Below, in pieces: positions 1 to 64,000 of a stretch of 64,000 nucleotides of DNA (position 1 is the first letter of the stretch; every line of letters starts with the position of its first letter). A program made the translations under genes and the position numbers. The stretch covers positions 32,325,383 to 32,389,382 of the forward strand of contig NC_069124.1 in the NCBI RefSeq assembly GCF_026914265.1, given 5' to 3'. Under the pieces are notes generated by a model that saw only the letters and a program-made list of their open reading frames with translations, searched no databases and was not told the origin of the DNA. The stretch is from Mya arenaria. Its lineage: Eukaryota > Mollusca > Bivalvia > Myida > Myidae.

Positions 1-1290
1 TATGCTGGTCTACTTCGAGTTGATATGTTTCGAGGTAAAAAGTATGTTAGACCACGCTCACTCTAATTCAACCAATCGGCATTCGCTATTTCATTGCTCC
101 TTTTCTCATATACTCATTGTATAATCAGAAGTATATATACAACTCCTAAAACACGATTTCCTCGAGGCAAATTGGATCACATTTGATGAAGTTAAGCATG
201 AAACCTTATTCATAGGCCAAGAAAATAATCTGTATTGTATCACCTATTTATACTTCTGTCATGGTCTAATAATAATCATTGAATATACTTTAATAGCAAA
301 CTGGAAACACTATTCCATAGTGGAACAAAACTAAAATGAGGTTTAAAGAAACGAATTCAGTGGAACCAGAGTAGCTAAACATTATTTTAGTTGATCTTTC
401 CACTTTTTAAGACGCTTAAATTTAGTTGTTACCTCTTGAGGTTTAGTTACATATTCAAAAAAGGTTCAATGCCATATACTTTTATCAGGAATTACGTTAT
501 AGTTTGTACAGGTCTCATTCCTCAATTGTACTGATTTATTATTTATATGCTGATAATGAAAACTTTAGGCATTTTGCACGTTTTATGGTTTGACCGTTCA
601 TCAGTAGGTATCTGTTTCATACAGAAAGTCCAAGGATGGCGTTCTCAGCACCGAACGTGGTGTATCGTCCGATGTATAAATATCAAGTCAACTTATCACC
701 AAAAGCCCCTCCTCCCCCCCCTCTACTCTACACACTACACAAACCACTGTGCCATATTTAAAGAAATAACTGACTTGTGCATGATGCTGTTGGCATTTTA
801 GATAGTTTTTACGTATCTCTACTTGCGTTGGTAACTAGTTCAATGGCGGTTATTATACGTCCAAACAACAGTTAAAAATATTGAAAAAGCATTACATAAC
901 ATTACATTTTCAGAGGTTACAAATCAAACATTTATTTGTAAGGCCATACCATGAACAAACAATGACCCTTTTTGATTTAAAAAATACAGATACGGTTCAT
1001 GTCGATCTCAATATCAATTATATTTATGCAGAAAATGATATTCAATTTAGTTTTTCGATACAGCAATTTCAGTTCTGGCAAATAGGTTAAAATCCTTGCC
1101 TTGCAATGTGTAAGGTAAACATTAATTCTCTAACCATAGAAAATTGAGTGATTGAGCCAAAGCCAAATACGCATTGTCTTCGGTATACAAAGTTAAATGG
1201 TATTTGGATTTTATGAGTCTTTATATTGAAGAACAAGAACCAAACCCCTCCTCCCTTGACGTTACGTGGTCTAAGTCGGAGAGACATCTC

Positions 1291-1359
1291 GTGGACGTAT
1301 CTATGACAAATAAACCCTCGCTACGCTCGGGTATATATATCTATCATAGATACGTCCAC
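1291..1359. repeat. Inverted repeat with 16-bp perfect arms
   Basis: Arms 1291-1306 and 1344-1359 (GTGGACGTATCTATGA and its complement) flank a 37-base spacer. The spacer holds a smaller palindrome-like CCTCGCTACGCTCGG. This looks like the remnant of a small hairpin-type MITE. The copy in unit C is at 44680-44748. Confidence 0.6.
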
Positions 1360-1742
1360 TCGCTGTCTATCCTATACAAATTCACACTGCATTCACTGTC
1401 CTCTTGAATTTATACTTGGTGAAAAGGATTTCGTCTAAGACATCAAATTTTATTTAAAATATCAGTGTGTTTTTTTATTCCTACTTAAACAATTTTTATA
1501 CAAGACAATTAGTGTTTGCTCAATTTTAGCGATTGGAGTATTTGTGGCGATGTGTTATATAAGTTAATACATAACCTCTGCAATATTACAAATGAATGTC
1601 GAAGTTGCCGAAACATATTAAATATCGGAGATTGAAAATTACTTTAAAACTTCTCAGATGCTGCTGAACTAATTACCCTTGAAGACGTATGTACAACGAT
1701 TCACGAAGCAAACGTTTAGTGATCACAGTAAGTTTTTGACTA

Positions 1743-1774
1743 CCGGAGTGGGGGGCGTGGGGGGGGGGGGGGGG
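1743..1774 (+). repeat. G-rich homopolymer tract
   Basis: A run of G interrupted by one CGT, able to form G-quadruplexes. It is shorter in unit C (about 45135-45161), as expected for polymerase slippage or for sequencing error in a homopolymer. Confidence 0.8.
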
Positions 1775-4149
1775 CGTTTCAGTAAAGGGTTTTAGTAGTT
1801 TCTTCAATTATCGTAAATCTGTTTTAATGTCTCAAATGGCAAAACATCGATTTGTTTTTAATACCTCAACTTCGTTTTTATTTTCAATGTTGACAAAGTT
1901 TAATTCTCACAAATATGTAGTAAAATAGTGTAACTAAGATGATTTCAATTCACGACTAAATTCGACTAAAATATTTATGAAAAAGGCCCCTCGGATTAAT
2001 TCCGATTCCCAAATTCATTTGCACATCTGCCTAAAGCCGACTGTAATTCATTTTCATTTGAAAGGAACTTGCTCATGTTTTTGTAAAATGCACTTCTTTG
2101 TGTGATGGAATAAAGTGTGGCAAATAATTAGGAGTGTTAAAACCAAGATATAGACGGCTGGAACCCTTCAACAAATGTTGATATATGCTCAAATATTCTC
2201 TTTGAAGACCACGATTTTAAACACCGTTAGTAACGCTTTTCAACAAAAGGCTTAAAGGTTGAGTTATTTTTATGTTTGAGTAGGAGTCCATGTGGGCGTG
2301 AGGTTTTGTTGTCAGTTTTCTTATTTTTCCTTGATTGTACCGGCGTGGGTCACACCCCACTAAAACAAGAATATCTTTTATATTTCAAGCACCGTATACT
2401 TCAAATTGGGTATCAGAGAGAAAAATAGTTATAATATAAGTGTATTCAGATGCATTAACCGGGGAACAAACGTGAGCGAGTCCCTTTAAGTTACATGCGT
2501 GGCTAAATAGTACACTGTGTTTATTGTTGTTGTTTTTGACGACTTCTGGGAAAAGTTGCTCATTATAATTCTTAAAATCATTTAAAGAATACTAACCTTT
2601 TACAAATATCTACATCGATTTATTTTAAGTTTTACAGAAAACAACAACATCATAACTTCAATTTAAATGAGTTCAAGGGTCTCAAGGCATTATTATGATA
2701 ATACTATGAAAACTACAGGGACAAGCCCAGTTGTCGAAAACCCTGTTTAGATGCACCAGGCAAGTGCTAAAACGACAATGAACTAGAGACACAAACATGT
2801 AAACACCACATACACAAATACGAACACTTCAAACAGACCATTCAATATAAGTTCAATACGCATCTAATACGTTAATTTGACAATTATGAAATTTAAAACC
2901 GTTATCATTTTGAACAATCTATTCCGAACGATTGCAAAGTTATGAGTGGAATTACATGTTGACTCTTATTTCTTTTCTGAAATCGTTAACAATATCATTC
3001 AATTGATAGGTCAGCGAAAAGCTAAACTTATTAATTTACATGTATTCTTCAAAATATGTCTGAATAATAGCCACTTTAATAAAAAAAACATAATATTTGG
3101 TAGCAAAATCTCGCGAAACCTTGCAAAAATATTTTAATTTGAGAATAAACTAATCCTAAACTATATCCAGTTACTCCATATTTATGTGCACCCTTTGTTC
3201 GAGGTATATGATTTGAATACTTTAGAGGATTGGCTGTTCCCAAAATCCTTAGTATGGAGGCCATAAAATAATGCAGGAAAGGAAGCAGCGCAAAAAGGCT
3301 TAGCCTTAGGAAATCAAAGTAATGAAGGTACTGCTGGATGTGATTTGGCTCATTAATATTACATTTTGACTTTCGTTTTATTCATGCCATAGGGTTATCC
3401 AAATACTGTTTTGAATCTTTTTTTAATGCTTCTTAAATAATATGGACGACATTAATATATGAATCATATTATTCATAGTATGTATATATATATTTTTTTA
3501 ATGTTTTTCAATCACATATGATAACTAAACAATAATTCATGTGAGTTTTTTAAATGGCGGTTTCCCTTTGCGCATTCATATTTAATCCATCTGTAAGTAT
3601 TTCCATATGCTATACAGCTTTTTGAATATGACATATAATTATAAGTATACTCTTTAGTATCTAATAAAAGCGAAACATTGTATTAAAATGTTAAAAATCT
3701 ATATTATTGATACTTATATAAGTTTATTCTAAGGCAAAAAGTTGATTTAGTCGGAATAATTATTCAAGACTAAAATGTCTTGATCTATTCAAATTATTTT
3801 TTCCCGTAGATTTGTATCGTGGTTTCTATCCTTGATATGCCATTCATCAAATGAATCAGATCTGGGTATTTTGTTTATCCCATATCAACAATAATGTTCT
3901 GCATTGATAAGACATTGATGCAAATAGGCATATAATCACACCATTATAATGTGTTTCATCTTTTCATACGAATTAAACAACTTTGTGAAATGAAATGATG
4001 TACCAAAATAGAAAATTTCAAATAAGGAATAACGATCTTCAGGTAAATATGAATGCGGACTGTTACATAAGATGTCTTATAATATGCTATTTGGAATACA
4101 CGTAATTAAGAATGTATTGAGTGGGTATCTAATACAAATGCCATATCAA

Positions 4150-4420
4150 TAATGTAAAAAAGCAGTTATCTCATAATGGAAAAACTATGAACAGTGTATT
4201 TAAGAGGATTTTAACGAACGGAATGCGAGTGAACAAACCCCGCGTACAATCAAAAATAAATAAATATTATAATAAAAACTATGCACAGATATAAAACATC
4301 AATACAAGATGTGATTAGTGGTCAAGTTCACAATATGCATATATGAGCAATGTATGTATTATTAACTATGTAAGTTGTACAAGTCTAAATAAAATGTCTG
4401 TACTGTTCTGGTCTTTTCTG
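4150..4420 (+). promoter_or_regulatory. Conserved non-coding block upstream of CHS start
   Basis: Most flanking sequence of units A and B has diverged, but the stretch around 4188-4235 stays close to 25034-25080 in B, including AACGAACGGAATG. A TATTTAAG TATA-like string is at 4197-4204. A second conserved patch with AATAAAATGTCT lies near 4388 (25248 in B). Position 400 bp before the coding start and paralogue conservation suggest core promoter or 5' UTR; this is inference. The equivalent TATA-like string in C is at 47567-47574. Confidence 0.35.
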
Positions 4421-4619
4421 TTTGAATCTAAAACATACAGCTCCCAATCACGGTTAGTTTTGTGATCGCAGTAACAAATATGGAAATGGATTTAAAAAGA
4501 TAATGTCTAAAAGATAACTTCTTTTAAGCTGTTCTTGCCGAAATTGAGAGTGGGAAACAAAGCAACGACTGGGGTAGGCACCTTCTGGCCAGTCCACACC
4601 GCAGAGCACGCGGAGAAAG

Positions 4620-7600
4620 ATGGACGAAGAGGTCAGCCCGCGTCAAGAGAGCGAATCGGCTGTCATGGACCCCAATGAAGAGTAAGATCACTTGCAAGAG
4701 AAAAGAAAACTATTGTAGTGCATTTTTCCATATTGGAAAATTATATACATAAGTGATATAATTCGATGAAAACTTAAGGGACAAACCCAGTAGTCAAAAC
4801 TTGACAACATTATACCGGTGATAAAATGAGTTTATTATCATTTTAAAGCCCTTTCATCTTCATTTTTTCAGGGACTTTCCCACAGAAACTAAGGAAAAGG
4901 AAAACAAGTCCTCAAAATGCGGTGACACATTTTTGAAAATATGCAGAGTTGTTTTCTTTTTTGTTTTGGCGCTATTGCTGCTTTCATGCGGCATACTGCA
5001 CAAGCTTTACTTCTTGACCCTTCTTAACAACCTATCACAGGTAAAACTCACCTCATTTGTTGCAATTAAATTTGCTCATTTGCTAGAAGTTTTTAAAAAC
5101 ATTTGATATGAAATCATATTTTTATTATTTATACCATAAAGGATTTAGCAGTTATAAACAGAATATTAAATTAAACTATTTCAAATATGTGTTTGGTGTT
5201 ACAGTTTGTTGAAAAATCAACGACTGACAAATATCAGTTCTGCAAAAGTATAAAATGTCCACAAGTAGTCATACATGATATTATCATATAGATACGTATA
5301 CAAATTTTGCGTAGACCAGTATGCAAATTAATGTAAAATGATACTATTGTTGGGGTATAATAAACCAACGACTTCCTTCTTTCAGTTCAGATTTGTTTAC
5401 ATAAAAGGTTTGAAAATTAGGTATCAAATCCATAAGATTAAAGTTCCTTTTTAGTCTAAAATTGAAGACAAGAAGAATCGAGCAATTTCAATTCTCGTGT
5501 GCATTGCATTTTTTGAATTCTTGACATCTCTTATAATTCTTTGGAGAGTTGTCTTCCAAGGTCAGAAGACTAAATGGACAAAACGTCACATAGCGGTAAG
5601 TCATCCTCCCTAAATCGATTGTTCTGCTGTTATGATTTAAATAATTTAAATGAATAGATATGACGATTGTATTACATGTATATTATTTGTCAGTTTGTTA
5701 AAGCTTAATATATAAACAAGTACATGCAATTAAATGATAATAATACATTTAAATATGCAGTTAAAATTCATTTAGACATTCAAGTACATGTTTTATTGAC
5801 CATTTTAGACAGCTATCCTGCAGGCCGTGAGCACTATTGGAGAGGTCTATTTGATTATCTATGCGCTTCCATTACTGGACAGTTTGAGGGCATGTTTAGT
5901 TCTAACAACTCTACCAATTATTCCAAGCATCTGCCAGTTCGTGACTTTAATTTGTCGGCTTAAACAAAAGAGTCGCATCAGAAAGAGTTCTTTCCTCAAA
6001 CTTTGTGTAGCTGGTTTCCCGGTTTTGGCACTGGCAGGGAGTGTTTTAGTATTCATGAAGTGGTTGATTCCTTTTGATAGCGACCCGCATCTAAAATGGG
6101 CGTTACCAACTTTTTTGATATTGAAGTCATTATGCTATTTGGATAATTTCCTTTGCTTTAGAAGTAGAGCTGCATATGCTACACAACAAACAGCAGGGGA
6201 ATTGAACTCCCAAGACTCGGAGACAAGCGAATCTAAAATAAAAGAGAAACAGTACAATGCCGAAAATAAACAAGAATTTATACGATTATCTGTTCGTTGG
6301 TTAACATGCTTAATGTTTATTATTTTGATAGTGCTGAATTTAGACATGAAACTGATTGAAACAATCACCAACAAAAACAATCTTGCAACTGAAACATTTC
6401 TGACAAACGAGAAATTCACACTGAATGGAAACATTTCGTCTAATTCAACAGTTTCGACTCCAGTGCAACCACATGACGGGACATTGATATCGACGAACCA
6501 TTTCATTTTTAACCACTTAATGAAGTTTTATTTCCGCGTTAAGTTTGAAGTAAGAATGATGGCATGTTCACTTGTGATTTCTCAATCGGCTTTGTTGGCT
6601 TGTCGATTGTCAATGCAGCAATTTTCATTTGCCTTGCCACTCATTCTTACCCCGCCGTTATCCACAATTGCTGTTGTAAGACTTTCCTGCAATAACTTTC
6701 TTGAAAGTATCCAGTACATAGTCGGAACTGATTTGACATGTTCTTTGCCTGTAGACTATCAGTTTTTCATAACGAGTGGTGCTTTGGCTTGGATTGCTGT
6801 AATCACGTTAACGTGGTACATCTGGGTTCCTCGGGTCGAGCGAATGGCAAAACAGGAAAGGTACAATAACAGGGGATTTAGTTATAGTAACATTTTAAAG
6901 ACTTATGTCAGAAGAATATGATAAGCAATATGATATATCTACATCTAAAGCTATCCGAAGTCAGATTATGTTCACGGTTTATAAAATAGAGTTCTAATAT
7001 GGAAATTAAATTCATCTAGCAAATTAATGTATAAAAAGTTTGAATGTGTTAATGAGACTGTCGAATTTTACGTTTTTACGTTGATAGGTTTTTTTCTGGT
7101 TGTATTTTCGATTTCATCTTCCCCGATTTGAACATGCTCCTGCGAAGGAGAAATGACCATGAAATTGGAGAGCTCCATACGGACAGGATACAACAGAGGG
7201 ATGACATTCCGAAAGTCATCATCTGCGTAACAATGTGGCACGAAACCTGTAAAGAAATGTGTCAGCTACTAAAGTCTATTTGCAGGTTTATAAATGTCTT
7301 GCTCGTCCCTGTATTGTTCATTGTATTATAGCTTATGAAAATAAGAAACTCGACTCTGGAAATTTTACTGCTTCTTTGAGGTAATATCGTTGCGTTACAT
7401 CAATAACACAGCATGCTGTTTTTTCATGTTTTACGTTTGAGAAAGTGATGAAAATTGTAAAACTATTTTTAAAGATATTTATATATCTTTCATTAAGAAA
7501 TTACACCAGTGAACAATACTTTTTAATTGCCTGTTAATACCTTATGCCGCGAATAATAGTGTGCATACATTTTAATTCGAAGTATGAATTCCATCTAATT

Positions 7601-8384
7601 TTCTTATCACATTTTTTCAGATTAGATTTGCACTTATTTACTCGAGGTGAAGCCGACAACGAAGAAGGTGATGGAAAACAAGACACTGAAAAGAAAACAC
7701 AAGACCCTGATAAAATTGAAGTTGAAGGTAAGTACACTAAGCAGAGTATGTTATGCATGTTTTAGTTTCAAACCAAACATATGTCAATTAACATCTGGTA
7801 AAACAATAAGCAATGTCTAAAGATATTGAAGTAAAATCTTCTATATTTCAGTGCAAATAGTATTTGACGACGCATTTTGCTCAACAAAAAACGGTCGAGA
7901 GGTTAATGAATATATGCTCCAGTTTATGCCATGTTTGCAAAAGGCCGTTGGGTATGTAGTAAGCTTTATTCCCGTAGTAAAATAGTGTAGAGGTGTATTT
8001 AGTTGCACAAACTATAAATTATCGGTAAATGTATTTGTAAGTTTGCAAACAAATCAAATTCATAAAGGAATGCTGTTAAAATGTGTTTGAATGTTCCATA
8101 AGAAAATTTAAAACTTCGGTTTACCTTGAGCAACCGTATCACAGCGAAGTAAATCATATGTATTTGAATTTTAAGGAGCAGTTCATTGATGAAAAAAGTG
8201 GTACAGACACCTTATGGCGGAAAACTTATTCTTAAACTCCCAGGAGGAACACAAATGACGTTGCATTTGAAGGATAAGAAAAAGATAAGGGCCAGAAAAC
8301 GTTGGTCTCAGGTAAAATATTTATATGAACAATTACAGAAAGCCTTTTAAAACATGAATTGTATATCGATGATGAGTTGGTGTG

Positions 8385-8424
<40 letters not shown>

Positions 8425-10700
8425 CGTGCGCGTGCGCGTGCGTGTGTGTGTGCGCGCGCGTTGTTTATGTCTTGATAGTTCGTTTGTGTCTCATATGTCG
8501 TTGGATCGGTATGTTATCACGAGAGCATGCACGGTAAATGGTAAATTGGCTTGTCCCTTTAGTTTGCATTACTTTAATACGTCATTGTAATAGTAGTCGG
8601 GCTGTATCAACATGTATCAAAATACCATGACCTTAATATCTACTTTCGTCATTATATCATTTAAGTTAAACAACCTGCATTTTATCACTTTTATTTCATA
8701 CTGTCTTCTAATTTATTTTTATTTAACGTTTTCTTTTCCAATATAGGTGATGTATATGTACTATTGTCTGGTGTACAAAATGAGGAAGGCCTATCCAATA
8801 AAGTTTAAAGACATGGCAAGTTATTTTAATGATTATCAGCCATTTGGGATTTCATTTATATAAATTTATCAAATGAATTTAGTAAAACATTTGCTTACTA
8901 TATATGTGTGTACTATTATTTCATTTATGACGTGTTTTATAATAAAATTGATTTACTGTACAGCTGAAGAACACATTCATTTTAACCCTTGACGGTGATG
9001 TAGACTTTGAGCCGGAGTCAGTCCTACGAATGATGGATCGAATGAAGATGAACAGCCGTGTCGGAGCAGTTTGTGGTAGAATTCACCCCATAGGATCAGG
9101 TAGTTCTATGAGCATTTAACTCTTTTTTTTGATAAAATGATATGCATTTTGTCAATAACTTTATGTTTTTTCATTATTTATCTTTATTCACATCTAACAA
9201 TTATTCACTTAAGGTCCAATGGTCTGGTACCAACAATTCGAATATGCAGTCGGACACTGGCTTCAAAAAGCAAGCGAACATATCTTTGGTTCTGTGCTCT
9301 GTTGTCCTGGATGCTTTTCTTTATTTCGAGCATCTGCCCTAGTTGACGATAACGTCTTGAAAACGTACACCAAAGAGCCAACGGAAGGAATTCACCTTGT
9401 GCAGTTTGAACAAGGCGAGGACAGATGGCTTTGCACCCTGCTCCTTAAACGAGGATACAAGATAGACTACTGCGCAGCCTCAGATGCAAAAACGTTTGCA
9501 CCAGAAAACTTTTGGGATTTTTTTGTTCAAAGACGGCGCTGGTCACCATCAACAATGGCAAACATGATGGACTTGGTCCTTTCTTGGAAACAACTAGTCC
9601 AAAACAACAGAGAAATCAACCATTTGTTCATGCTTTATCAATTGGTGCTAGTTATAACAAGTGTGTTAGCTCCTGGAACTGTCATTCTTATGATAGCAGG
9701 GTCATTCAGTACGGTATTAGGTTTAACGCCATGGTATGCCTTTTTCGTTGCCGTGACTCCGGTAGTTTTGTTCGCAGTGTTATGCCTGACAGTGTCTCAG
9801 AAAAAGCAACTCAATGTAGCCGCAATACTAAGCACAGCATATTCACTTGTAATGGTTATTGTTACAATCGGCACAATGGTAAACATCACAAACGAGACAG
9901 TTCTTTCTCCTACCGTGATCTTCCTCATATCTATCGGTCTAGTATTACTGATATCTGCGTTGCTTCACCCTAAAGAGTTCACATGCTTGTTTCCTGGCTT
10001 GCTTTATTTCGTTTCTGTGCCTTCTACATTTATTTTTCTGACAGTGTTTTACGTGTGCAATCTACATGACATCAGTTGGGGTATTCGAGAATCCAAATCA
10101 CAATCAACTCAGTCTGAAGTAAAAAGTGGAAAGAAATCGTTTGTGCGTTTGCTTTTTACTCTAGTTCGACATATCCTGCAGGCAAAACTCGCTAAAATCA
10201 ACTCCAAAGGTTCAACTTCGGACGATATTGAGAGACAACAATGCGAACAAGGTGAGGAAAAAATAGATCATGAGGACGATAGCTACTGGATAAAGGTACA
10301 ATTAACAGACTCAAAACAAAACTTTGAAACAATTCAGCTCGAGGAAGCTGAAGAGGAATTTTGGACAAAATATATAAACAAGTATTTGAAACCACTAGAA
10401 AGCAACAGGAAACTTCAAGAAAAATTTAATCGTGAATTAATGGCGTTAAGGAACAACTGTGTGTACGGTTTCTTTATGTTGAACTTAATGCTAGCATTAG
10501 CACTGTTGCAATTACAAGTAAGCAAAGAAAGGTTATATGAATCATTATCAATAATGTTTCTGTCAATTTTTGCAATTTTACTTTTGATCCAATTCATCTT
10601 TATGCTTTTTTATCGATGGAAAACTTTCTGCCATATTATTTCAAGCACTGAGGTGTTTGGGTGCCGCTGTTTAAAACGAACAAAGACTAAAGCGCAATAA
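4620..10700 (+). CDS. CHS: Chitin synthase, copy A (11 exons, 1,218 aa)
   Basis: Membrane glycosyltransferase that polymerises UDP-GlcNAc into chitin. My splice model: 4620-4681, 4872-5040, 5455-5595, 5809-6860, 7088-7285, 7621-7727, 7852-7951, 8176-8311, 8747-8815, 8964-9099, 9214-10700; all phases agree and total 3,657 nt. Exons 2-4 encode the N-terminal membrane segments. The core follows in family order: TMWHET with CKEMCQLLKSICR (about 519-541), FDDAF, PYGG and LPGGT, KKIRARKRWSQ, TLDGDVDF (686-693), GRIHP, EDRWLCTLLL (792-801), QRRRW product-binding motif (829-833), SWGIRE (1011-1016), then further membrane helices. The start is the first ATG after an in-frame TAG and has a good context (A at -3, G at +4). 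Intron 9 has a GC donor at 8816. No myosin head is seen, unlike some mollusc chitin synthases. Exon borders are predictions; the catalytic assignment is secure. Confidence 0.93.
8380..8461 (+). repeat. TG/CG dinucleotide microsatellite in CHS intron 8
   Basis: Alternating (TG)n passing into (CG)n-rich sequence, with Z-DNA potential, in the intron between exons 8 and 9. It is shorter and interrupted in unit C (51744-51819), a typical slippage difference. Confidence 0.9.
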
Positions 10701-11036
10701 TTTGAAGAACACATGAAAGGGCATGGGAAAGGTTAAAAATCAGATAAGCCGCCGCCTGATTATAAAAATAAGCTTGCTGCGTATCATAACGACGGCTATA
10801 ATAAAACTAATGATGATACGCATCTCCTTCATAAAGTAAACAAGAGTCAAGGACATTTATGGTTCCGCAACATAAAACAAAGCGGAGAACATCAACACCC
10901 ATGACTTTCAAAAACAAATGAAAGAGTTTGAGCATGATTTGGGGGAAGAGGTAGAATCTGATGAGCCGCCGCCTGATTATTTGCACGAGCCTGATTTTGA
11001 TCATAACGACAGCGATGATGAACCTTCATTAAGATA
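10701..11036 (+). pseudogene. Relic of the chitin synthase C-terminal tail
   Basis: Directly after the TAA at 10698-10700 the DNA still resembles the coding tail of copy B (32580-32700): the GAA codon after KAQ in B is TAA here. The relic contains two imperfect copies of the block encoding an acidic DEPPPDY-like stretch, near 10741-10765 and 10958-10985, so the tail was partly duplicated and then decayed. It is probably now 3' UTR. The copy in C follows 54059. Confidence 0.6.
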
Positions 11037-12022
11037 ACCGAACTCAAGGAAATACGTCTTTACTGGCACAAAATACAATGTGTGCGCAATATAAAAAATG
11101 CTATTGCTGATGGTTGTTTTGAAGACCTGGAATGAAATACACTAACGCCAATATTCATGGGGGAAAATAATTCATATCAGCGGATACAATAACAATGATA
11201 ATATATCCCATATTGAAAGCAAAAACTACATCCATGTTAATCAATATTGTATGTTCGTATCTATCTGTTATCTGTTCTTTTTTATTGATGGTTTATTTTT
11301 CATTCTTGTGCGGTCAGTTTGTGGTATTTGTATTTATGTATGTGGTGTTTACACGTGTGTGTCCTTTGTTCATTGTCGTTCAGGCCCTTACCATGTGCAT
11401 CTAAACAAGGTTTATTTAACAAATCATTTCTTGACTACTGGGCTTGTCCCTGTTATTTTCACTGTATTATTTTAATATAGCACTAAAACGTTAGCTAATA
11501 AACTCATGTTTAAAACATTTTAATTTTTATTTCGCTTTATACTTATATCTGAATAATATCTCAAAATGTGCATTTGTTTTATTTGATATTCGTTTTAAAT
11601 TATGTATGGTTCATTAAAGCGTGCAAACATTTCATTTTTGCAGTTTTTGCTTTAAAAAAAACGATGTCGAATGTATAGATTAACACTAACACAAATTGAA
11701 GTTTGATTACTTTCCAGCACCAATACGTTTATGCATCGTAACGGTAGACACTCTTTGAGTATTTCAATTTAAACAGCTAAAAAGTTATGCGTATTAGAAA
11801 AGAGATCGTTCACAAACACACATATTCATTGTATGGATAATAAGAGGGTATCCAGAGTTTCAGATTATTAGCTAATTTCAAGATTATTTTTGCGAATATT
11901 CACTACTGCTGAATTATGGCAAGCAGTAGATATAATAGCAATATATATAGGTTAGTGCAATATAGTTGTTGAGGTATGCCGGTATGCCCCAAAGTTGAGT
12001 TTGACTCTTTGAATGCAAACAG
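11037..12022. other. Intergenic, AT-rich, nothing recognised
   Basis: Likely 3' UTR and downstream flank of CHS A. Short frames around 11195-11475 are T-rich and hydrophobic by composition only; I see no splice sites or domain signal supporting them. Confidence 0.5.
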
Positions 12023-12430
12023 TTGTCACTGGAATTTATCGCCAATAGCAATGCACATCTTCTGGTCGTCAATAAACGACTTGTAGTATTAGGGTATAAA
12101 CATGTTGAGTTTGAGGCCTGGATAAGGGGAAGGAACGGAATATTCTCCGGTGTTATCGAGGCTGAAAGCCAAACTCCTCATCATGCTGTCTTGTGCGTCT
12201 TACGCAACCACTTGGGATTTTCAGAGGATACATTTCATGTCAGTGATGACATACTCATTGGACGTTATATAACATCAAATGTTGACAATGCGCGCGACAC
12301 ATCAATATCCTTATTATGTACATTCTCTGACATAGATCAGGCATATAAAGTTGGGCATACAAACATTTGTATTTCCCGTGAATTCCCTCGAACAATTCAG
12401 GATGCCCGCAGACAACTTTTGCCAGAATAA
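12023..12430 (+). CDS. Unidentified exon-like ORF, 135 aa
   Basis: An open frame that is long for this AT content and ends at TAA 12428-12430. It is preceded by TGCAAACAG, a possible splice acceptor, so it may be a terminal exon and not a complete gene. The stretch GVIEAESQTPHHAV then LRNHLGF loosely recalls a Nudix box, but the catalytic REVxEE residues are absent and the spacing is off. I do not assign a function. In unit C one A is missing near 55523 and the frame breaks after about 48 codons. The two copies therefore disagree on whether it is intact. No equivalent was seen in unit B. Confidence 0.4.
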   Translation: MSLEFIANSNAHLLVVNKRLVVLGYKHVEFEAWIRGRNGIFSGVIEAESQTPHHAVLCVLRNHLGFSEDTFHVSDDILIGRYITSNVDNARDTSISLLCTFSDIDQAYKVGHTNICISREFPRTIQDARRQLLPE

Positions 12431-15429: not shown

Positions 15430-15494
15430 AATTCTTAAAAAGGCGAGGAAATGCCAGCGCATGTATATGACGGACTCTGGTCAGTTTGACGGAC

Positions 15495-50900: not shown

Positions 50901-53900
50901 AATACCTTATGCCGCGAATAATAGTGTGCATACATTTTAATTCGAAGTATGAATTCCATCTAATTTTCTTATCACATTTTTTCAGATTAGATTTGCACTT
51001 ATTTACTCGAGGTGAAGCCGACAACGAAGAAGGTGATGGAAAACAAGACACTGAAAAGAAAACACAAGACCCTGATAAAATTGAAGTTGAAGGTAAGTAC
51101 ACTAAGCAGAGTATGTTATGCATGTTTTAGTTTCAAACCAAACATATGTCAATTAACATCTGGTAAAACAATAAGCAATGTCTAAAGATATTGAAGTAAA
51201 ATCTTCTATATTTCAGTGCAAATAGTATTTGACGACGCATTTTGCTCAACAAAAAACGGTCGAGAGGTTAATGAATATATGCTCCAGTTTATGCCATGTT
51301 TGCAAAAGGCCGTTGGGTATGTAGTAAGCTTTATTCCCGTAGTAAAATAGTGTAGAGGTGTATTTAGTTGCACAAACTATAAATTATCGGTAAATGTATT
51401 TGTAAGTTTGCAAACAAATCAAATTCATAACGGAATGCTGTTAAAATGTGTTTGAATGTTCCATAAGAAAATTTAAAACTTCGGTTTACCTTGAGCAACC
51501 GTATCACAGCGAAGTAAATCATATGTATTTGAATTTTAAGGAGCAGTTCATTGATGAAAAAAGTGGTACAGACACCTTATGGCGGAAAACTTATTCTTAA
51601 ACTCCCAGGAGGAACACAAATGACGTTGCATTTGAAGGATAAGAAAAAGATAAGGGCCAGAAAACGTTGGTCTCAGGTAAAATATTTATATGAACAATTA
51701 CAGAAAGCCTTTTAAAACATGAATTGTATATCGATGATGAGTTGGTGTGTGTGTGTGTGTGTGTTGTGTGTGTGGTGTGTGTGCGTGCGCGTGCGCGTGC
51801 GTGTGTGTGTGCGCGCGCGTTGTTTATGTCTTGATAGTTCGTTTGTGTCTCATATGTCGTTGGATCGGTATGTTATCACGAGAGCATGCACGGTAAATGG
51901 TAAATTGGCTTGTCCCTTTAGTTTGCATTACTTTAATACGTCATTGTAATAGTAGTCGGGCTGTATCAACATGTATCAAAATACCATGACCTTAATATCT
52001 ACTTTCGTCATTATATCATTTAAGTTAAACAACCTGCATTTTATCACTTTTATTTCATACTGTCTTCTAATTTATTTTTATTTAACGTTTTCTTTTCCAA
52101 TATAGGTGATGTATATGTACTATTGTCTGGTGTACAAAATGAGGAAGGCCTATCCAATAAAGTTTAAAGACATGGCAAGTTATTTTAATGATTATCAGCC
52201 ATTTGGGATTTCATTTATATAAATTTATCAAATGAATTTAGTAAAACATTTGCTTACTATATATGTGTGTACTATTATTTCATTTATGACGTGTTTTATA
52301 ATAAAATTGATTTACTGTACAGCTGAAGAACACATTCATTTTAACCCTTGACGGTGATGTAGACTTTGAGCCGGAGTCAGTCCTACGAATGATGGATCGA
52401 ATGAAGATGAACAGCCGTGTCGGAGCAGTTTGTGGTAGAATTCACCCCATAGGATCAGGTAGTTCTATGAGCATTTAACTCTTTTTTTTGATAAAATGAT
52501 ATGCATTTTGTCAATAACTTTATGTTTTTTCATTATTTATCTTTATTCACATCTAACAATTATTCACTTAAGGTCCAATGGTCTGGTACCAACAATTCGA
52601 ATATGCAGTCGGACACTGGCTTCAAAAAGCAAGCGAACATATCTTTGGTTCTGTGCTCTGTTGTCCTGGATGCTTTTCTTTATTTCGAGCATCTGCCCTA
52701 GTTGACGATAACGTCTTGAAAACGTACACCAAAGAGCCAACGGAAGGAATTCACCTTGTGCAGTTTGAACAAGGCGAGGACAGATGGCTTTGCACCCTGC
52801 TCCTTAAACGAGGATACAAGATAGACTACTGCGCAGCCTCAGATGCAAAAACGTTTGCACCAGAAAACTTTTGGGATTTTTTTGTTCAAAGACGGCGCTG
52901 GTCACCATCAACAATGGCAAACATGATGGACTTGGTCCTTTCTTGGAAACAACTAGTCCAAAACAACAGAGAAATCAACCATTTGTTCATGCTTTATCAA
53001 TTGGTGCTAGTTATAACAAGTGTGTTAGCTCCTGGAACTGTCATTCTTATGATAGCAGGGTCATTCAGTACGGTATTAGGTTTAACGCCATGGTATGCCT
53101 TTTTCGTTGCCGTGACTCCGGTAGTTTTGTTCGCAGTGTTATGCCTGACAGTGTCTCAGAAAAAGCAACTCAATGTAGCCGCAATACTAAGCACAGCATA
53201 TTCACTTGTAATGGTTATTGTTACAATCGGCACAATGGTAAACATCACAAACGAGACAGTTCTTTCTCCTACCGTGATCTTCCTCATATCTATCGGTCTA
53301 GTATTACTGATATCTGCGTTGCTTCACCCTAAAGAGTTCACATGCTTGTTTCCTGGCTTGCTTTATTTCGTTTCTGTGCCTTCTACATTTATTTTTCTGA
53401 CAGTGTTTTACGTGTGCAATCTACATGACATCAGTTGGGGTATTCGAGAATCCAAATCACAATCAACTCAGTCTGAAGTAAAAAGTGGAAAGAAATCGTT
53501 TGTGCGTTTGCTTTTTACTCTAGTTCGACATATCCTGCAGGCAAAACTCGCTAAAATCAACTCCAAAGGTTCAACTTCGGACGATATTGAGAGACAACAA
53601 TGCGAACAAGGTGAGGAAAAAATAGATCATGAGGACGATAGCTACTGGATAAAGGTACAATTAACAGACTCAAAACAAAACTTTGAAACAATTCAGCTCG
53701 AGGAAGCTGAAGAGGAATTTTGGACAAAATATATAAACAAGTATTTGAAACCACTAGAAAGCAACAGGAAACTTCAAGAAAAATTTAATCGTGAATTAAT
53801 GGCGTTAAGGAACAACTGTGTGTACGGTTTCTTTATGTTGAACTTAATGCTAGCATTAGCACTGTTGCAATTACAAGTAAGCAAAGAAAGGTTATATGAA

Positions 53901-54059
53901 TCATTATCAATAATGTTTCTGTCAATTTTTGCAATTTTACTTTTGATCCAATTCATCTTTATGCTTTTTTATCGATGGAAAACTTTCTGCCATATTATTT
54001 CAAGCACTGAGGTGTTTGGGTGCCGCTGTTTAAAACGAACAAAGACTAAAGCGCAATAA
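47988..54059 (+). pseudogene. CHS: Chitin synthase, copy C, one-base frameshift in exon 4
   Basis: Exons: 47988-48049, 48240-48408, 48823-48963, 49177-50227, 50454-50651, 50986-51092, 51217-51316, 51541-51676, 52106-52174, 52323-52458, 52573-54059. Each has the same length as in copy A except exon 4, which is 1,051 nt and not 1,052. An A is missing at about 49920, giving a TGA at 49924-49926 inside a conserved membrane segment and before the catalytic core. Exon 11 encodes the same 494 residues as in A, with the identical EDRWLCT and QRRRW motifs and the same early TAA. Either a very young pseudogene or an intact gene with one assembly error; everything else argues for the latter. Confidence 0.85.
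51744..51819 (+). repeat. TG/CG microsatellite, copy C
   Basis: Counterpart of 8380-8461, shorter and with a broken phase (TGTTGTG, TGGTG). Confidence 0.9.
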
Positions 54060-55381
54060 TTTGAAGAACACATGAAAGGGCATGGGAAAGGTTAAAAATC
54101 AGATAAGCCGCCGCCTGATTATAAAAATAAGCTTGCTGCGTATCATAACGACGGCTATAATAAAACTAATGATGATACGCATCTCCTTCATAAAGTAAAC
54201 AAGAGTCAAGGACATTTATGGTTCCGCAACATAAAACAAAGCGGAGAACATCAACACCCATGACTTTCAAAAACAAATGAAAGAGTTTGAGCATGATTTG
54301 GGGGAAGAGGTAGAATCTGATGAGCCGCCGCCTGATTATTTGCACGAGCCTGATTTTGATCATAACGACAGCGATGATGAACCTTCATTAAGATAACCGA
54401 ACTCAAGGAAATACGTCTTTACTGGCACAAAATACAATGTGTGCGCAATATAAAAAATGCTATTGCTGATGGTTGTTTTGAAGACCTGGAATGAAATACA
54501 CTAACGCCAATATTCATGGGGGAAAATAATTCATATCAGCGGATACAATAACAATGATAATATATCCCATATTGAAAGCAAAAACTACATCCATGTTAAT
54601 CAATATTGTATGTTCGTATCTATCTGTTATCTGTTCTTTTTTATTGATGGTTTATTTTTCATTCTTGTGCGGTCAGTTTGTGGTATTTGTATTTATGTAT
54701 GTGGTGTTTACACGTGTGTGTCCTTTGTTCATTGTCGTTCAGGCCCTTACCATGTGCATCTAAACAAGGTTTATTTAACAAATCATTTCTTGACTACTGG
54801 GCTTGTCCCTGTTATTTTCACTGTATTATTTTAATATAGCACTAAAACGTTAGCTAATAAACTCATGTTTAAAACATTTTAATTTTTATTTCGCTTTATA
54901 CTTATATCTGAATAATATCTCAAAATGTGCATTTGTTTTATTTGATATTCGTTTTAAATTATGTATGGTTCATTAAAGCGTGCAAACATTTCATTTTTGC
55001 AGTTTTTGCTTTAAAAAAAACGATGTCGAATGTATAGATTAACACTAACACAAATTGAAGTTTGATTACTTTCCAGCACCAATACGTTTATGCATCGTAA
55101 CGGTAGACACTCTTTGAGTATTTCAATTTAAACAGCTAAAAAGTTATGCGTATTAGAAAAGAGATCGTTCACAAACACACATATTCATTGTATGGATAAT
55201 AAGAGGGTATCCAGAGTTTCAGATTATTAGCTAATTTCAAGATTATTTTTGCGAATATTCACTACTGCTGAATTATGGCAAGCAGTAGATATAATAGCAA
55301 TATATATAGGTTAGTGCAATATAGTTGTTGAGGTATGCCGGTATGCCCCAAAGTTGAGTTTGACTCTTTGAATGCAAACAG
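54060..55381. other. CHS tail relic and intergenic DNA, copy C
   Basis: The first part, to about 54395, is the decayed C-terminal tail, as at 10701-11036. The remainder is AT-rich with no supported gene. Confidence 0.5.
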
Positions 55382-55788
55382 TTGTCACTGGAATTTATCG
55401 CCAATAGCAATGCACATCTTCTGGTCGTCAATAAACGACTTGTAGTATTAGGGTATAAACATGTTGAGTTTGAGGCCTGGATAAGGGGAAGGAACGGAAT
55501 ATTCTCCGGTGTTATCGAGGCTGAAGCCAAACTCCTCATCATGCTGTCTTGTGCGTCTTACGCAACCACTTGGGATTTTCAGAGGATACATTTCATGTCA
55601 GTGATGACATACTCATTGGACGTTATATAACATCAAATGTTGACAATGCGCGCGACACATCAATATCCTTATTATGTACATTCTCTGACATAGATCAGGC
55701 ATATAAAGTTGGGCATACAAACATTTGTATTTCCCGTGAATTCCCTCGAACAATTCAGGATGCCCGCAGACAACTTTTGCCAGAATAA
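55382..55788 (+). pseudogene. Copy C of the unidentified 135-aa ORF, frameshifted
   Basis: Identical to 12023-12430 except that one A of the GAAAGCC run is missing near 55523, which breaks the frame after about 48 codons. The downstream frame is still open to TAA 55786-55788. Confidence 0.4.
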
Positions 55789-56056
55789 GAGTCTGCGTGA
55801 GTTCCACGGCATGGAGAAAGTGACCATTATCTTTCCGGCATTCTAACATTTGACATTTGTCTAGGCTATAACTAAAATTAGGGCCACCGTATCAAGCGGG
55901 TAACGTACACTTGGCGTTATTTATAAGTATGTTTTAAATGTTTTTTAAGTAAATACATTTGGTTACAATTGACCTTACGACAGCGGTTTCTAAGCCACAC
56001 CTCCTGATATCAAGGGAGCGAACTCTGCCTATGTCAGTCAAACAAACAAGGAAGCA

Positions 56057-57348
56057 ATGGCGTCTCGCGTCGTTTCACTTTCCGATATTCCTGACAATTT
56101 ATCATAAATGTGACATTTCACTGCGAAAAAATAGTAGTCAAAGGAATCGGAAGGCTCGATATATCTTTAGAGGATGAAGATATCTAACACTTACGGGGTA
56201 ACAACTATCCAAGGATAACCGTTATGTTGTCAACATTGACATGGATACAAAGGAAAAGCTTGTGTGTGTGAAGCATACTGTCAATGCAAACAAGGGTAAG
56301 TTTAACTTTTAATAACACCGGTCATTCTTACAGTATTGTTGAAACAAAGATTAAATCATCGCACAATATGAGTAAATCATAAATGGCCCGAATGGGGAAC
56401 CCGGAAGTGACATTAAATGACAGTTACATGCCAGCTATATAACCTTGTATTCTATAGTATGAGCAGAAATGGTTTCTTAGGGTTATGCATAAAAAAGTTC
56501 AGTTCTCAGCGACTGAACACTCCCCCTTATGAATAATAATGTAATAGTTGACAAGTTACAATCGTGGGTGATACCAATCTGTAACTTTTGCATTTCTTAA
56601 ACACTCACATGCTTTGATTTTTGTTCTTTTAAAATTGTTGAACATGTTCACACACTCTGGCTGTAAAAGTGGCTGGAGGAAAAGTGCCCCCGGTGTGGGG
56701 CTTGAACTCACAATCACCGGAACACTAACACGGCGCTCTAACCAACTAAGCTGACCGGGCAGCTGGTTCTAACCCACACACACTACCATTCCCCCATTAA
56801 CCTGTTAAGGCTGATGGAGGGCCTCCTGCTGTTTACCGTTGCCACCATTAAAGTATTCTTATTGATGAATATAATGAAGTCTTCAACAAGCCTACCGCCA
56901 CAGGGGACATAGCATATGACCAGACCCCCCCCCCCCACACACACACACACATGATATATGCCAGTCCAGGCAATGTCAACCGCAAGAGAAAACCAGTGAT
57001 GACAAGTTTTACAAATAATCGGTAGGACCTATTTTAAAGCTTTTTACAACATTTAGTTTTACTTTGCTGTACAAAAGTAATGGACTATTTCAGAAAATAC
57101 AACAACCACAAAACATACAGTTAGCTATTATCTTGTCAGTATTTCATTATGATATACATGTAGAAAGCAAACACCAAAGGCAGTAGCATTTACAGCTAGT
57201 ATTAAAATATTTAACAATGCATATAACTGATTTATTTGAATATTGGCATCTTTTATTTATTTCAGGAATGTATGGTCTTTTGAAGAGAGTTATTGAAGTT
57301 GTTCAGCATGATGTTTTGATGGATTCTTGGAAGGATGTACCTCTATGA
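56057..57348 (+). pseudogene. Copy C of the broken small gene
   Basis: Same ATG context (56057), same internal breaks, same donor (after 56295) and acceptor (57265), and same terminal exon 57266-57348 as in unit A. The breaks shared by both copies are therefore not random read errors. Confidence 0.4.
56685..56760 (-). repeat. tRNA-derived sequence, copy C
   Basis: The same 76 bases as 13327-13402 in unit A. Confidence 0.6.
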
Positions 57349-57550
57349 TGTTAGCTTCAGTTCTGGAGTATAACACCAGTTGTTGCATATTTAATATCAG
57401 ATTTATTAAATATATTGTTGTTTTGCAAACATTACTTAAACTTTGATATTTCTTTGGTGCTTATGTATGGTATTGTAGGTGAACATCTCTTTATTGCAAT
57501 GACAAATATATTTTAAATTATATAGTATTAACAGAAGTTATTTTTCACTG

Positions 57551-57740
57551 TTAAAGCTGCACTTTCACAGATTGATCGCTTTGACAACTTACACAAGATC
57601 CGATTGTATTTATCATATTTTGGCTAGGAGAAGTTTGCTTTGTGATTTATATATTAGGTCTTAATTTAAAGAATGCCAAAATAAGCCGATTCTGAGACAA
57701 AAAAGTGTCAAAACAGAAATCTGTGAGAGTGCAACTTTAA
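57551..57740. mobile_element. TTAA-flanked MITE, copy C
   Basis: Counterpart of 14195-14384, with the same terminal inverted repeats and TTAA borders. Confidence 0.8.
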
Positions 57741-57948
57741 GAATACTGGTAATCGAGTGTACATGTGATCCAAAAGCTGAACATGGGATGAACTATCATT
57801 AAATATTATAGATTTACATAAATGGCACCAGATATAAGAATAGCATTGAAATCATGTACATGTTTGACTTGTTCTTTATTCATAATAAGTCTAGGTCTTT
57901 ACAGCACATATTTGGCAGAATCAAGTTCTAATGAACTTAATAATTGAT

Positions 57949-58785
57949 TTATATGTACAGTGAAATAAATTGATTTATACAGAAAATAATACCCTGGCGA
58001 TTCAGACCGTTCTGTTGTGTTTGTTTTTTTGGTGGCTCAGATATTAATCTGAGTTTTGGAGGAGGTCTAGCTGGTGTGAGCTGGTCAAATACAGTAGCTG
58101 TTTGAGGGTCAGGGTTTCTTGATTGGGTTTCCCGTCGACAAAGTGCTGATATGAAAATATAAACCTATGAAATGTGTCGAAATGACAGCTACAATAACCA
58201 TTGTTTACATAGTAACCATAAAAGGAGATGAGATTCGGAAGCATGCGATGGTTCGGACAAAAATTTAGTTGTACGATGTTTCCTGATTTACTTTGAAAGC
58301 AAAGCAGTTTATAAGCATACATAACGGTATCAACAAAAATACCTCTATCTTGAATGAAATCAATTGTGTCCATGTTGAACCTGATATTAAATGGCCATTA
58401 ATGCCGATTTGACAACAGAAGCCCAAACATAAATGTACGATGTTTATAGTTTAAAAATAGTAACACTAATTTAGATCATGCACGGACAATTTCAGTATTA
58501 AATAATGTTTATGCGGATTGATCCCCCACCCCCTTATAAGCAAAGAAGTAGTTTTGATCAGAAAAATACTTTTGTACAGACGTATAGATGTTTCGCCTTT
58601 GATCGATCTTTCAAGATTTTCAAGTTCAGCTGTTGGTGGGGTCTTCCACAGAGTCTGATCCAGCGCTTGCATTTTTCCAAATTACTCGCTGGTTTCGAAT
58701 ACGGAACGAATTGCACGCCATCTTTAGTCGGCTTGGCTACCTTGTATCCGAATTACAAGTGCCATGACAACACCTTTTTTACCAT
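57949..58785 (-). CDS. THAP-type zinc-finger gene, copy C, frame disturbed
   Basis: Exon 1 is 58785-58570 and exon 2 is 58145-57949, with the same splice sites as copy A. The A-run after the ATG has six A and not seven. The A-run before PDPQ in exon 2 has one more A than in copy A. The break after CNSDTR is shared. Because the two copies disagree only in homopolymers, base-calling uncertainty is a real alternative to pseudogenisation. The CCAAT and YY1-like block lies upstream at about 58851-58897. Confidence 0.55.
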
Positions 58786-60704
58786 AATTCTTAAAAAGGC
58801 GAGGAAATGCCAGCGCATGTATATGACGGACTCTGGTCAGTTTGACGGACAAAATGGCGGATAACAACACGGCTTATCAGCGCTACATTCTGATTGGCTG
58901 ATAGGACCTGTCAATCAAATCCTGTCATAAGGTCAATTAACCATATCTTGAGTTTTTAAAAGTGAGGTTATAGCTGATAATTGTTTGACGTACACATACC
59001 GTGCATGAAATGTGTAAAACAAATTAATCTTCAATGAGGTACATTAGATTGCCTTTTTTATTTTGAAATAATTGTTTACATGTAACTCTGTATGTTTGTA
59101 TCGAAGATATACATTTTGTTGCTGTAAAAAAACCCCTTAAAGAATGAATTTAAGTGTATGGTACGGTTCTGCGGTATAGATTGTATTAATAGTAGTTTGT
59201 CTATAAGGATCAGTTGGTTATTATAAAAGACATAGAACACAAAATCACAAACAAGAAACATAGAACAGCACAAAACTCTACAAACAGCACAGTGCATAAA
59301 TGCTATATATATATATATAATAATTGGTATGTTTATCAAGAACTGTTAGGTACCGCCTTGAAACGGTCAGTAAAATGTAAATTTACTGGGGGTTTAAACC
59401 AGTTTATGTGCACAAACCTCACTCTTATTCCAACAATTCTTAATAAAGATAAAACGCAAAAGGTAAATCTTATCAAAGTATGCATTAACTTGAGGAAACT
59501 TATAAAACAAATAATAATAAAAAGCGAAAAGGTTTCCCTTATTAACCTGTGTTTTTGTTTCTATAATTGTTAATATTAACAAATAAGCTAAGAATATTCC
59601 TTTTGTGGAATAAACAGGGAAAGGTTATCGAGACTTAGTGGACTGGTTACCTTGATGCAAGTAAGAATAGTAGTATGTAGCCTGTATTGTAAATCATCTA
59701 CAATTGGAGCTTCCTCGGCCATTCTTTTTAAAGATATTCAAAAGACAATTTGTATATATGCTGCTGGATAATAAACTTATGTAAATCAAGGCCCAATACT
59801 TTGACTGTAATTATTGTCGAGTAATGGCCTTTGTTCTACTAAAATGAGTAGAAGAGTATTGGCGCTTGCTTCGCGGCGCTCTTGTCTAGCACCTATGTTT
59901 TTCAAGGAAGTTGAGGTATTATGATAGCCTTTGTCGTCGGAGTTATCGAGCAAAAACTTTAACCATGGTCGTACTTCAAAAACTGAAAGATATTCAAATG
60001 AAACTCGGTACATATATACTGCGAAGCCCATAACATTGGCTTCCATAGTTGTCAATTTGGAAACATAAAATGATGGTTTTATGGTATTTGTTTTGTCATT
60101 CTTGTTAGCTCCTCTTTTACTCTGAAATACTAATGATCAATTTGGACTTAAAAGTCATCGGTAAAACTGTATTTTTACAAAGGTTTCTAACAGAAATATA
60201 TATCTTGAATACTGATGATATATTTGGTAGTTATGTCCTTGGTAAGGCTACATTTTATAATGATTTCAAACAGAAACATTTCTCTTGAATATAAATGATG
60301 CACTTGGCATTACTGTCCTCAATAAGGCTGCATTTTAGTATACCCCCCCCCCCCCTTCCCCCTTACATATTTCCAAGCTAGTTCAATGAAACTATAGCAA
60401 GGCAGATATAATTTTAATCACCAAATGATGTAATCACCAAATGATGTAAAATATTTCTCCAGTTACATTTGAGGGTTAATCTGTTTCTGTGGTTTTCCAT
60501 CTACCTGAGAAAGAGGGTCAGCCAATGATCGACTTCTTTAACAGCATCTACATCTTAATGACAGACATCATGGTGTTCATGTGATAAAGAAATGATTATT
60601 CAATTTCTAGCTCTGAATGACTACCTTATTCTAAGAGCTGCAAAAATATTAAATAAGAAGTATACTTTGATACGACACAAGATGATTTTCACTACTCCTT
60701 TTAG

Positions 60705-60860
60705 GTAGTTAGAAGAGGTCTGTGGGAAGATTATGACTCTCAGAAACATCGGAGCCGTGGACGTACGCAAGCGACTCTGCACCGCCACCGTTTTATCCGG
60801 CCTCGTGACATACGCCTGCATCTCGCTTCCACTGACCTACTTCATCATCAGCAGCTTTAA
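60705..60860 (+). other. Orphan exon-like segment, copy C
   Basis: The same as 17349-17504, acceptor included. A one-base gain downstream (CAAAATAAA) lengthens the alternative hydrophobic frame. Confidence 0.3.
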
Positions 60861-60899
60861 AAAAATATGTGACAAGCCGTGTTTCAGGCTTGGATTATT

Positions 60900-63787
60900 G
60901 CCCATGCCGCATCTAGGTATTGCTGGCGTTAACTTTGTTTTCAAAATAAATGCATTTCTTATGTACATGAACACATTACAATATATACTATACTTACATC
61001 CGAGCACTGATAACATATATTTATAAACAAGTGTTGCTCCTGTGAGTAACTGAGAAGAACAGACGAGCTTCAGCTTGTCTTATTCATTAAAACGTCTAGA
61101 TATGGTCAGCATCGGTCATTTGCGTCGTTATCAACGTGCAATACCGTCTTTAATGTATGAACTAATTAAAAAATACTAATACTATCAACTTGATGCACTG
61201 ATTGATAATGCACAATCTCATATTGAAATTTTTAAAATCCATAAGCTCTGCCTTTTGCTGCTGTCCTCAACTGAGAGAAAAAGACGAACGTTCATATGAT
61301 TCGCTTATTTTAACTTTATTCAATTAGATCCTTGTGTAGGAGTACAGGAGTGTGCAACATAATTATAACATCGGTGAGATGTATCTAGATCTTATCATAC
61401 TAGTTTGTTTGATTAGTACCTAGAGTATATATTACATAAGGGGAGAAATTAACGATGGGTCTAGAATATGTTAACCTTCCTCATAATGATGAGCCATTGT
61501 AGCGCCACCCGGCCAGTGTAACGTTTTTACCCTGATATGATTTTAGTTCCTAGGTCGGTTTTCAATGTTATACTCAGCAAATAAATAACGGACCAATACA
61601 GAAATTGAAATCAATGATGTATAACCATAAGATTGACTTAAGTTGCATATAATGTGCCAACCCTTATATCATTCTAGTTCCGTGATGTCCGTAAGGTACG
61701 GTTTATTAACAGTTAACTCTACAGTTCTACAAATCATTAGTACTGATACATTGTTCAATATATGTTACGTGACATCGTACATTTTAGTCTTTAAACGAAA
61801 GGTAGTTAACTCGTGCAATGTTAGCAACTTTCATATAGCTTATTTAACGAAAGTTGTTGCGCATTGAAAATTCAACAAGGAAGTTATCCATTAATAATAG
61901 ACGATTTTTTTTTCCAGGATATCTTTATGGTCAGACAATCTGACCTATTTCTTGGGATTGGTTTTAGGGTTTTTCTTCAAAATGATGCAAACATCAAAAT
62001 GTTTACAAGATAACCCTAGAAATCTGATTCACAATCTAATTATTTTAGCGATGAATATTCCCTTCTGTTGGTGCTAAACACTTCCCCAAAAATGCCCCAA
62101 AAAGACATGTTTTACAACAGATTTTATATATTGCCATATCGTCGTCGATTACCCTTGGTCCTCGTTTTAGGTTCCGATTTATCGGTACCTTTTAGAGTTC
62201 TTTGTTGAGTTTTAACGTATTTATTTTACAACGATTGTGAAATAAGTTACTACAACAATATTTTAATGATAGTGTGGTCTTGTGTTATGGGGGAAACCGG
62301 ACACATCCCAACCCTTTTACCTAGGCAGGGAATAGAACTTTGGTCGCCTAGGTTTAGAACTGTAACGTATGAAAATAATAATGCCTTTGAAAAAGCATAA
62401 TATTCGCACAACAAATTTTATTTTCGCCACAGAAAAAGGTTGGGCATTTTTATGCAATAGGAATGCACCACATGAACTGATCAGTTCAATAGCAATGCGT
62501 ATACTTATCAACAAATAGTTCAGCTAATTCAATAAGAATTTCAATTAAAGAAATCAAAATGATTGATATCCTAATTGCATTTTAAACAGAAAACATGTTG
62601 ATTTAATGATCACTTAGACAATGCGTATTCGATAAAGTAAATAGACGAGGTAATTGTCGTTACTAATGATTTAGTTTATGGTTTAACTATTTTCGGTTCA
62701 ATTCAGTGTAGTTCATAGGTGAAACAAATCGCATATGAAATGTTAGTTTTGATAAAGTTTGCAGGTAATGGGATAAATGGTGTGGCACTGTATGATAAAA
62801 TGTTTCCATAACAATTTCTTCGCACGTGAAAATAGGATCCTATTCGTCCCAAATGTGAAGACTGGGATCTCATTTCACAAAACAGAGTCACACATATCTC
62901 AAAACAAGTAAAACTTGCGTTCCATACAGGTTTTTGGTGTGAAATGAAATCCCCTTCATCGAATTACATTATCAATGTGCAGTTATATTAAAAATGAGCA
63001 TGTTTACATATGAATCCCGTTTTTCCAAATATTGCTGGTTTATAAACTCCGGAAAGTTTTACTGTAGTTGTATGTGGATGCACCCAGTAAATGCAGAGTT
63101 ATGACCGCTGAATAATCTTTAGAACATGCAATATTGAGTCGCGCGTGTCTTAAAAAATATTTAAGCTAGTGTTATGAATCTTTACAAGAGTGTTTACCTG
63201 ACCAGCATGCGCAATAAGTTTAAGCCCTTTATTTTTTTTGAAAATATGGCGACTTTAAAGCCAGAGTAATGAAAGGTCATGTACATCAGCCCATTGTTTA
63301 AAGCCGGTTAAAGTCTTGGTTTTTTAAAGGATTCCAAAATGTTCATTGAAAGGTTTATATTTAAGTTATTAAAATACTAACGAATCAAACTGTTTTACTG
63401 AGTCAACATGCTAATATAATACCTGTAGAAAAAATATTTTTATACAGTTCGCTACTGATGTAATGGGTGTGGTTGCCTCCACTAATAGTAGAGTTCTTGC
63501 AGATAAAAGCAAATAATCTTTGGGTGTGTTTATGGTGGTGCTCAACGTCATGGTCCTTGAATTAATAAAAATAGGCATATTGAGCCTGAAATTTTGTGAT
63601 GCATTTATCTAATAAGTCATTTGAGATAGAGTCATCATCCTTCGCAATGATGTTAGTCTGCATATCAAGTTATGCACGTTGGTAAAGGTCAAGGTCACAG
63701 TCGCTTGAAATCGTGAGATATGGGTTTTCATCCCCATCTAAACTTCAAATTAGATAAAAGTGCACGTTGGCATGTTAGTATACTGAA
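60900..63787. other. Non-coding distal part of unit C
   Basis: Counterpart of 17540-20428; no gene seen. Confidence 0.5.
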
Positions 63788-64000
63788 GGTATATTTCGAG
63801 GTGATATGTAGGTATATTTCGAGGGGATATGTATGTGTATTTCGAGGTGATACGTAGGTATATTTCGAAGTGATAAGCAAGTATATTTCGAGGTGATATG
63901 TAGGTTTATTTCGAGGTGATAAGTAAGTATATTCCGAGGTACACTTCGAGGTGATACGGAGGTATATTCTGATGTGATAAGTAGGTATTTTCGAGGTGAT
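63788..64000 (+). repeat. Start of the 23-bp minisatellite, copy C
   Basis: The first nine or so monomers match those of 20429-20641 one for one, including irregular ones, and the array runs out of the window. Its length beyond cannot be judged. Confidence 0.9.

Follow-up and report, generated by a model that had tools for sequence, protein, structure and literature searches.

A chitin synthase gene pair almost certainly counted twice at a contig gap in the Mya arenaria assembly

Does the genome assembly of Mya arenaria contain a real A-B-A' array, in which two near-identical blocks (A and C) flank a strongly diverged block (B), or has one locus been assembled twice? The arrangement appears in a stretch of 64,000 nucleotides, referred to here as the window (C3:32325383-32389382, in an assembly of 1.216 Gb in 18 sequences). 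The window was analyzed together with added flanks of 90 kb on the left and 100 kb on the right, for a region of 254 kb. Coordinates are those of the window, where 0 is the base preceding position 1 and negative coordinates lie in the left flank. The copy at the end of the left contig is designated C3L and the copy at the start of the right contig C3R, both on C3, and C7 and C5 are further assembled sequences with copies of the locus. Features are collected in Table 1.

Table 1. Features of the window and their basis
Feature	Position	Strand	Basis or remark
C3L (left copy), end of left contig: A + B	1..38266	+	begins outside the window at -5025
A block	1..20641		within C3L
A upstream ORF, 364 aa	5827..6918	+	weak ChitinSynthase_IV_N match, below Pfam cut-off
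A catalytic exon, 493 aa, chitin synthase, QRRRW	9219..10697	+	Pfam PF03142
B block	20642..38266		within C3L
B stretch homologous to A upstream ORF, two pieces	27150..28044	+
B degraded catalytic exon	31101..32583	+	stops and frame changes
100-N gap, both copies terminate there	38267..38366		N-run scan
C3R (right copy), start of right contig	38367..64000	+	runs on beyond the window to 81654
Part of C3R matching left flank -5025 to 0	38369..43390	+	flank comparison
62-bp minisatellite, 18 copies	40109..41233		repeated by the presumed false duplication at -3287 to -2160
Block C, piece of C3R inside the window, matches A	43391..64000	+	self-comparison
Second copy of A upstream ORF, judged false, two frames	49195..50282	+
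Second copy of A catalytic exon, judged false	52578..54056	+	homology to A exon

Extent of the match and its relation to the gap

The initial annotation described A and C as near-identical, with few substitutions and more indels, and A and B as strongly diverged, and both descriptions are borne out. Comparison of the window with itself aligns A and C in 20,647 columns at 99.73% identity, the differences being 13 mismatches and 43 gap bases. Matches between A and B come in separate pieces only, of 66-84% identity (e.g., 81.0% over 1,730 columns and 77.9% over 1,074). The block size of 20.6 kb does not survive, as A and C appear 20.6 kb long only because the window stops at 64000. With the flanks included, blastn matches -5025..38266 to 38369..81654 at 99.71% over 43,343 columns; B is repeated too, and the 43-kb unit size that had been guessed agrees with this 43.3-kb match.

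The two copies are separated by exactly 100 N, the sole N run of the 254-kb region, of which the initial annotation made no mention. C3L ends on the last base ahead of this gap, and the alignment on the other side begins two bases into the right contig. The match is therefore bounded by the gap on both sides, with a suffix of the left contig equaling a prefix of the right contig, as in a dovetail. A gap also separates the duplicated pair on one scaffold, which is a false-duplication criterion of Ko et al. (2022). No junction is found inside continuous sequence, as would be expected of a true tandem segmental duplication, the junction here being the gap itself. Since the match both starts and ends at the gap, it points to an unmerged overlap of ~43.3 kb between neighboring contigs and not to a 43-kb dimer. 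The check proposed for such a dimer, alignment of the 5 kb left of the window with 38.4-43.39 kb, does give a match, but the interpretation attached to it, a tandem 43-kb dimer, is not supported.

Copies on other assembled sequences and differences at contig ends

A search of the whole genome with window positions 1-2000 returned, besides the two C3 copies, matches of 99% on C7 (minus strand) and C5 (plus strand). On C5, a 100-N gap (64358069-64358168) is followed by sequence whose first base is that of the C3R contig; the two are identical for 14,123 bases from this common start and then diverge. C7 likewise has a 100-N gap (63360702-63360801), its minus-strand end base is the end base of C3L, and 10,000 of the 10,000 bases compared at the common end are identical. 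Among the candidates scored, full sequence to the left of the overlap occurs on C3L and C7, with C5 and C3R beginning at the overlap start, and near-identical sequence to the right occurs on C3R and C5, with C7 and C3L stopping at the overlap end. A 2-kb query from ~108 kb right of the gap has its C5 match at the corresponding distance, and paired weaker matches on C7 hold order and spacing to ~222 kb left of the gap; collinearity with both sequences is thus given by matches at a few points. The base-by-base comparison with C7 covers ~24 of the 43 kb, and two 2-kb searches cover the middle. Short pieces taken from beyond the C5 gap (668 bases) and the C7 gap (1,901 bases) match nothing within the 254-kb region.

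Several length differences and match pairs were seen in passing. C3L contains one 62-base minisatellite unit (-2529 to -2468) that is missing from C7, an ordinary haplotype length difference, and ~6.5 kb of C5 (64468357-64474909) is missing from the corresponding place on C3, probably an insertion that differs between haplotypes. At the A/B border (20428-22254) lies a degenerate 23-bp tandem array with a unit like AGGTATATTTCGAGGTGATATGT. Elsewhere in the assembly, pairs of matches with equal or similar scores fall within one sequence, namely, on C2 (8.65/9.45 Mb), C12 (14.43/15.14 Mb), C10 (3.97/9.91 Mb), C17 (0.31/5.23 Mb), and C11 (52.1/57.9 Mb). These may be retained haplotype copies, young duplications, or repeats.

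The differences between C3L and C3R are unevenly distributed along the overlap. A MAFFT alignment of the 43.3 kb shows 27 substitutions; of its 72 indel events, 59 are single-base (18 mismatches and 108 gap bases by blastn). Bases are missing from C3R in 29 of the 33 indels of the left half and from C3L in 32 of the 39 indels of the right half, a reversal of polarity with a Fisher P value of 3e-9. A single switch point fits 62 of the 72 indels, a fit equaled in 0 of 5,000 permutations on the same grid; the 10 that run against the polarity count against a false duplication. From this reversal, each copy looks poor toward its contig end and better beside its own unique flank.

Loss of a base where haplotypes disagree is a product of mixed reads in long-read consensus. 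Across the left 14,200 columns, there are 45 SNP columns between C3L and C7. At 24 columns of this stretch, C3R is without a base that C3L and C7 carry and is the same as C5. Ten of these 24 deletion columns coincide with C3L/C7 SNP columns, where 0.08 would be expected (hypergeometric P value, 7e-20). The right 10,028 columns give the mirror image: with 39 SNP columns between C3R and C5, C3L, there the same as C7, is without a base carried by C3R and C5 at 25 columns, 7 of which are C3R/C5 SNP columns (0.10 expected; 3e-12), all such deletion and SNP counts varying somewhat with the alignment, as some gaps shift by one base between alignments. Two genuine gene copies would not be expected to lose bases at SNPs, and judging from the sequences, these deletions mark a consensus of mixed haplotypes from a single diploid locus. 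The remaining deletion columns (14 of 24 and 18 of 25) lie off the SNPs and count against this account. It was also considered that the off-SNP deletions fall mostly in single-base runs; this fails, as only 16 of the 32 are in runs of at least 3, so that half are without a simple homopolymer cause.

In the alignments, SNPs set C3 apart from C7 and C5, and C3L and C3R are almost alike. Over the four 5-kb bins that span 10-30 kb of the aligned copies, 132 columns differ, and in 88 of them C5 stands alone; C3L and C3R therefore look like one haplotype, with the other haplotype on C7 and C5. Of the 35 differing columns in the last bin, 17 have C3L standing alone, as expected of a poor C3L end. The individual appears to be heterozygous at the locus, with the SNP columns above amounting to 45 in 14.2 kb and 39 in 10 kb.

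Chitin synthase genes of the region

The catalytic exon of A scores 88 bits with PF03142 (Chitin_synth_2), for which the curated cut-off is 27 (E value, 7.5e-25), and it contains QRRRW, a chitin synthase motif. The corresponding stretch of C3R, 52578-54059, is identical to 9219-10700. The upstream ORF of A reads through in C3L and C7; in C3R and C5 it is split, and the one-base deletion in C3R sits at a C3L/C7 SNP. B had been called a diverged paralogue of A, and this tandem paralogy is real. In all four contigs (C3L, C7, C3R, and C5), the catalytic exon of B is interrupted by the same four in-frame stops ahead of QRRRW, so that B appears to be a genuine pseudogene in each haplotype. Two extra frame changes, present in C3L and C7 only, look like artefacts. 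That the breakage of the B exon in C3L is wholly an artefact, as considered because the exon forms one unbroken alignment in C3R, is ruled out by the four stops common to all contigs.

In the 254 kb, tblastn (E values up to 1e-8) finds nine copies of the catalytic exon, at about -74.4, -42.7, 9.2, 31.1, 52.6, 74.5, 103.8, 124.5, and 145.0 kb. We judge those at 52.6 and 74.5 kb to be false, which leaves seven of the nine.

On C3, a tandem array of chitin synthase paralogues extends from -89 kb to 147 kb of the window, with collinear blocks that are, by arithmetic, ~100-106 kb apart after removal of the false 43.4 kb. In the paralogous unit upstream, a 4.7-kb tract (-82489 to -77737) is 98% identical to B 23100-27847 and is flanked by stretches at 89% and 94%. 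A 2-kb query from B has 98% identity to this upstream unit on C3 and 94% to the corresponding place on C7, and the tract could be a recent gene conversion on one haplotype.

Competing explanations and consequences

The initial annotation had left two options open, one locus assembled twice and an A+B dimer of very recent origin. The former, and not the latter, is sustained by the gap, by the contig ends that coincide, by the two further copies that share those ends, and by the deletions at heterozygous sites. We hold it to be very nearly certain, from the assembled sequences, that this is a false duplication, in which two C3 contigs that overlap by ~43.3 kb were joined by a 100-N gap rather than merged. 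Most likely, one shared node of the assembly graph was written into four contigs, and the halves of the second haplotype were scaffolded onto C7 and C5. Such a node, of ~43 kb, would have been entered by two paths and left by two, and it may have been a single long corrected read that mixed the two haplotypes. The assembler would have broken at the node and copied it into all four contigs, after which polishing would have repaired every copy next to its unique flank and left the far end. The scaffolder would then have ordered the two haplotype-1 contigs on C3 and misplaced those of haplotype 2, the left half on C7 and the right half on C5.

One rival is a real 43-kb tandem duplication (A-B-A'-B') of very recent origin, at whose junction the assembly broke. 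This reading has some appeal in a region where tandem paralogues are plentiful, as near-identical tandem repeats are known to break assemblies. We nevertheless regard it as very improbable: it needs a contig break exactly on the junction and predicts neither the end base common to C7 and C3L nor the start base common to C5 and C3R. Identical ends shared across chromosomes and SNP-site deletions of reversed polarity are likewise not predicted by it. Equally slight is the chance that a real 43-kb A-B duplication happens to coincide with a contig break and that the segments on C5 and C7 are real too. Still less credible is a heterotype duplication within C3, in which C3L and C3R would be two alleles placed in tandem. 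The heterozygosity seen between C3L and C7 and between C3R and C5 is compatible with alleles, but only 27 substitutions in all separate C3L from C3R, and the columns in which C5 stands alone make them look like a single haplotype. We give as little credence to a genuine segmental duplication common to C3, C5, and C7; near-identical copies do stand on three assembled sequences, yet C7 has the left flank only and C5 the right flank only, both in C3 order, and each is cut by a 100-N gap at a common end base.

The overlap read as a false duplication can be set beside assembly artefacts already described. The marks named in the account of Ko et al. (2022; PMC9516828) include a gap between the members of a pair, half or very low read depth, discordant read pairs, and single-copy k-mers. 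Half depth is there a mark of heterotype and very low depth of homotype duplication, and single-copy k-mers in both members mark heterotype duplication only. As in cases described in that study, a duplicated pair stands on one scaffold with an intervening gap and produces false gene gains, and an alternative haplotype is kept as extra sequence on another scaffold. Unlike those cases, both types seem to be combined here, the C3L/C3R overlap being apparently of one haplotype and C7/C5 of the second, and one junction segment is common to all four contigs. A study of phased human assemblies (PMC10234299) describes loss of heterozygosity in overlapping contigs of the same haplotype, one of them nearly identical to the opposite haplotype; in its description, the overlaps are assembly artefacts of unclear origin. 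Contigs of one haplotype that overlap, with opposite-haplotype sequence in the overlap, appear to be present at this locus as well. Whereas the cases reported there often (85 of 118) have one contig embedded within a larger one, four contigs here meet at one segment, and their shared ends look like a mixed-haplotype consensus.

The A-B-A' array is almost certainly an artefact and no real feature, with the pair of chitin synthase copies almost certainly counted twice in the assembly. Shared contig end bases together with SNP-site deletions could be used to test an assembly for such artefacts without any reads. On the sequence evidence, the A-B pair would be present once per haplotype at this locus, and the tandem chitin synthase array would be real, with A and B occurring once each. 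As two of the nine catalytic-exon copies in the 254 kb are judged false and C5 and C7 carry additional copies of the locus, counts of chitin synthase expansion, dating of duplications, and linkage studies based on this assembly would be misled.
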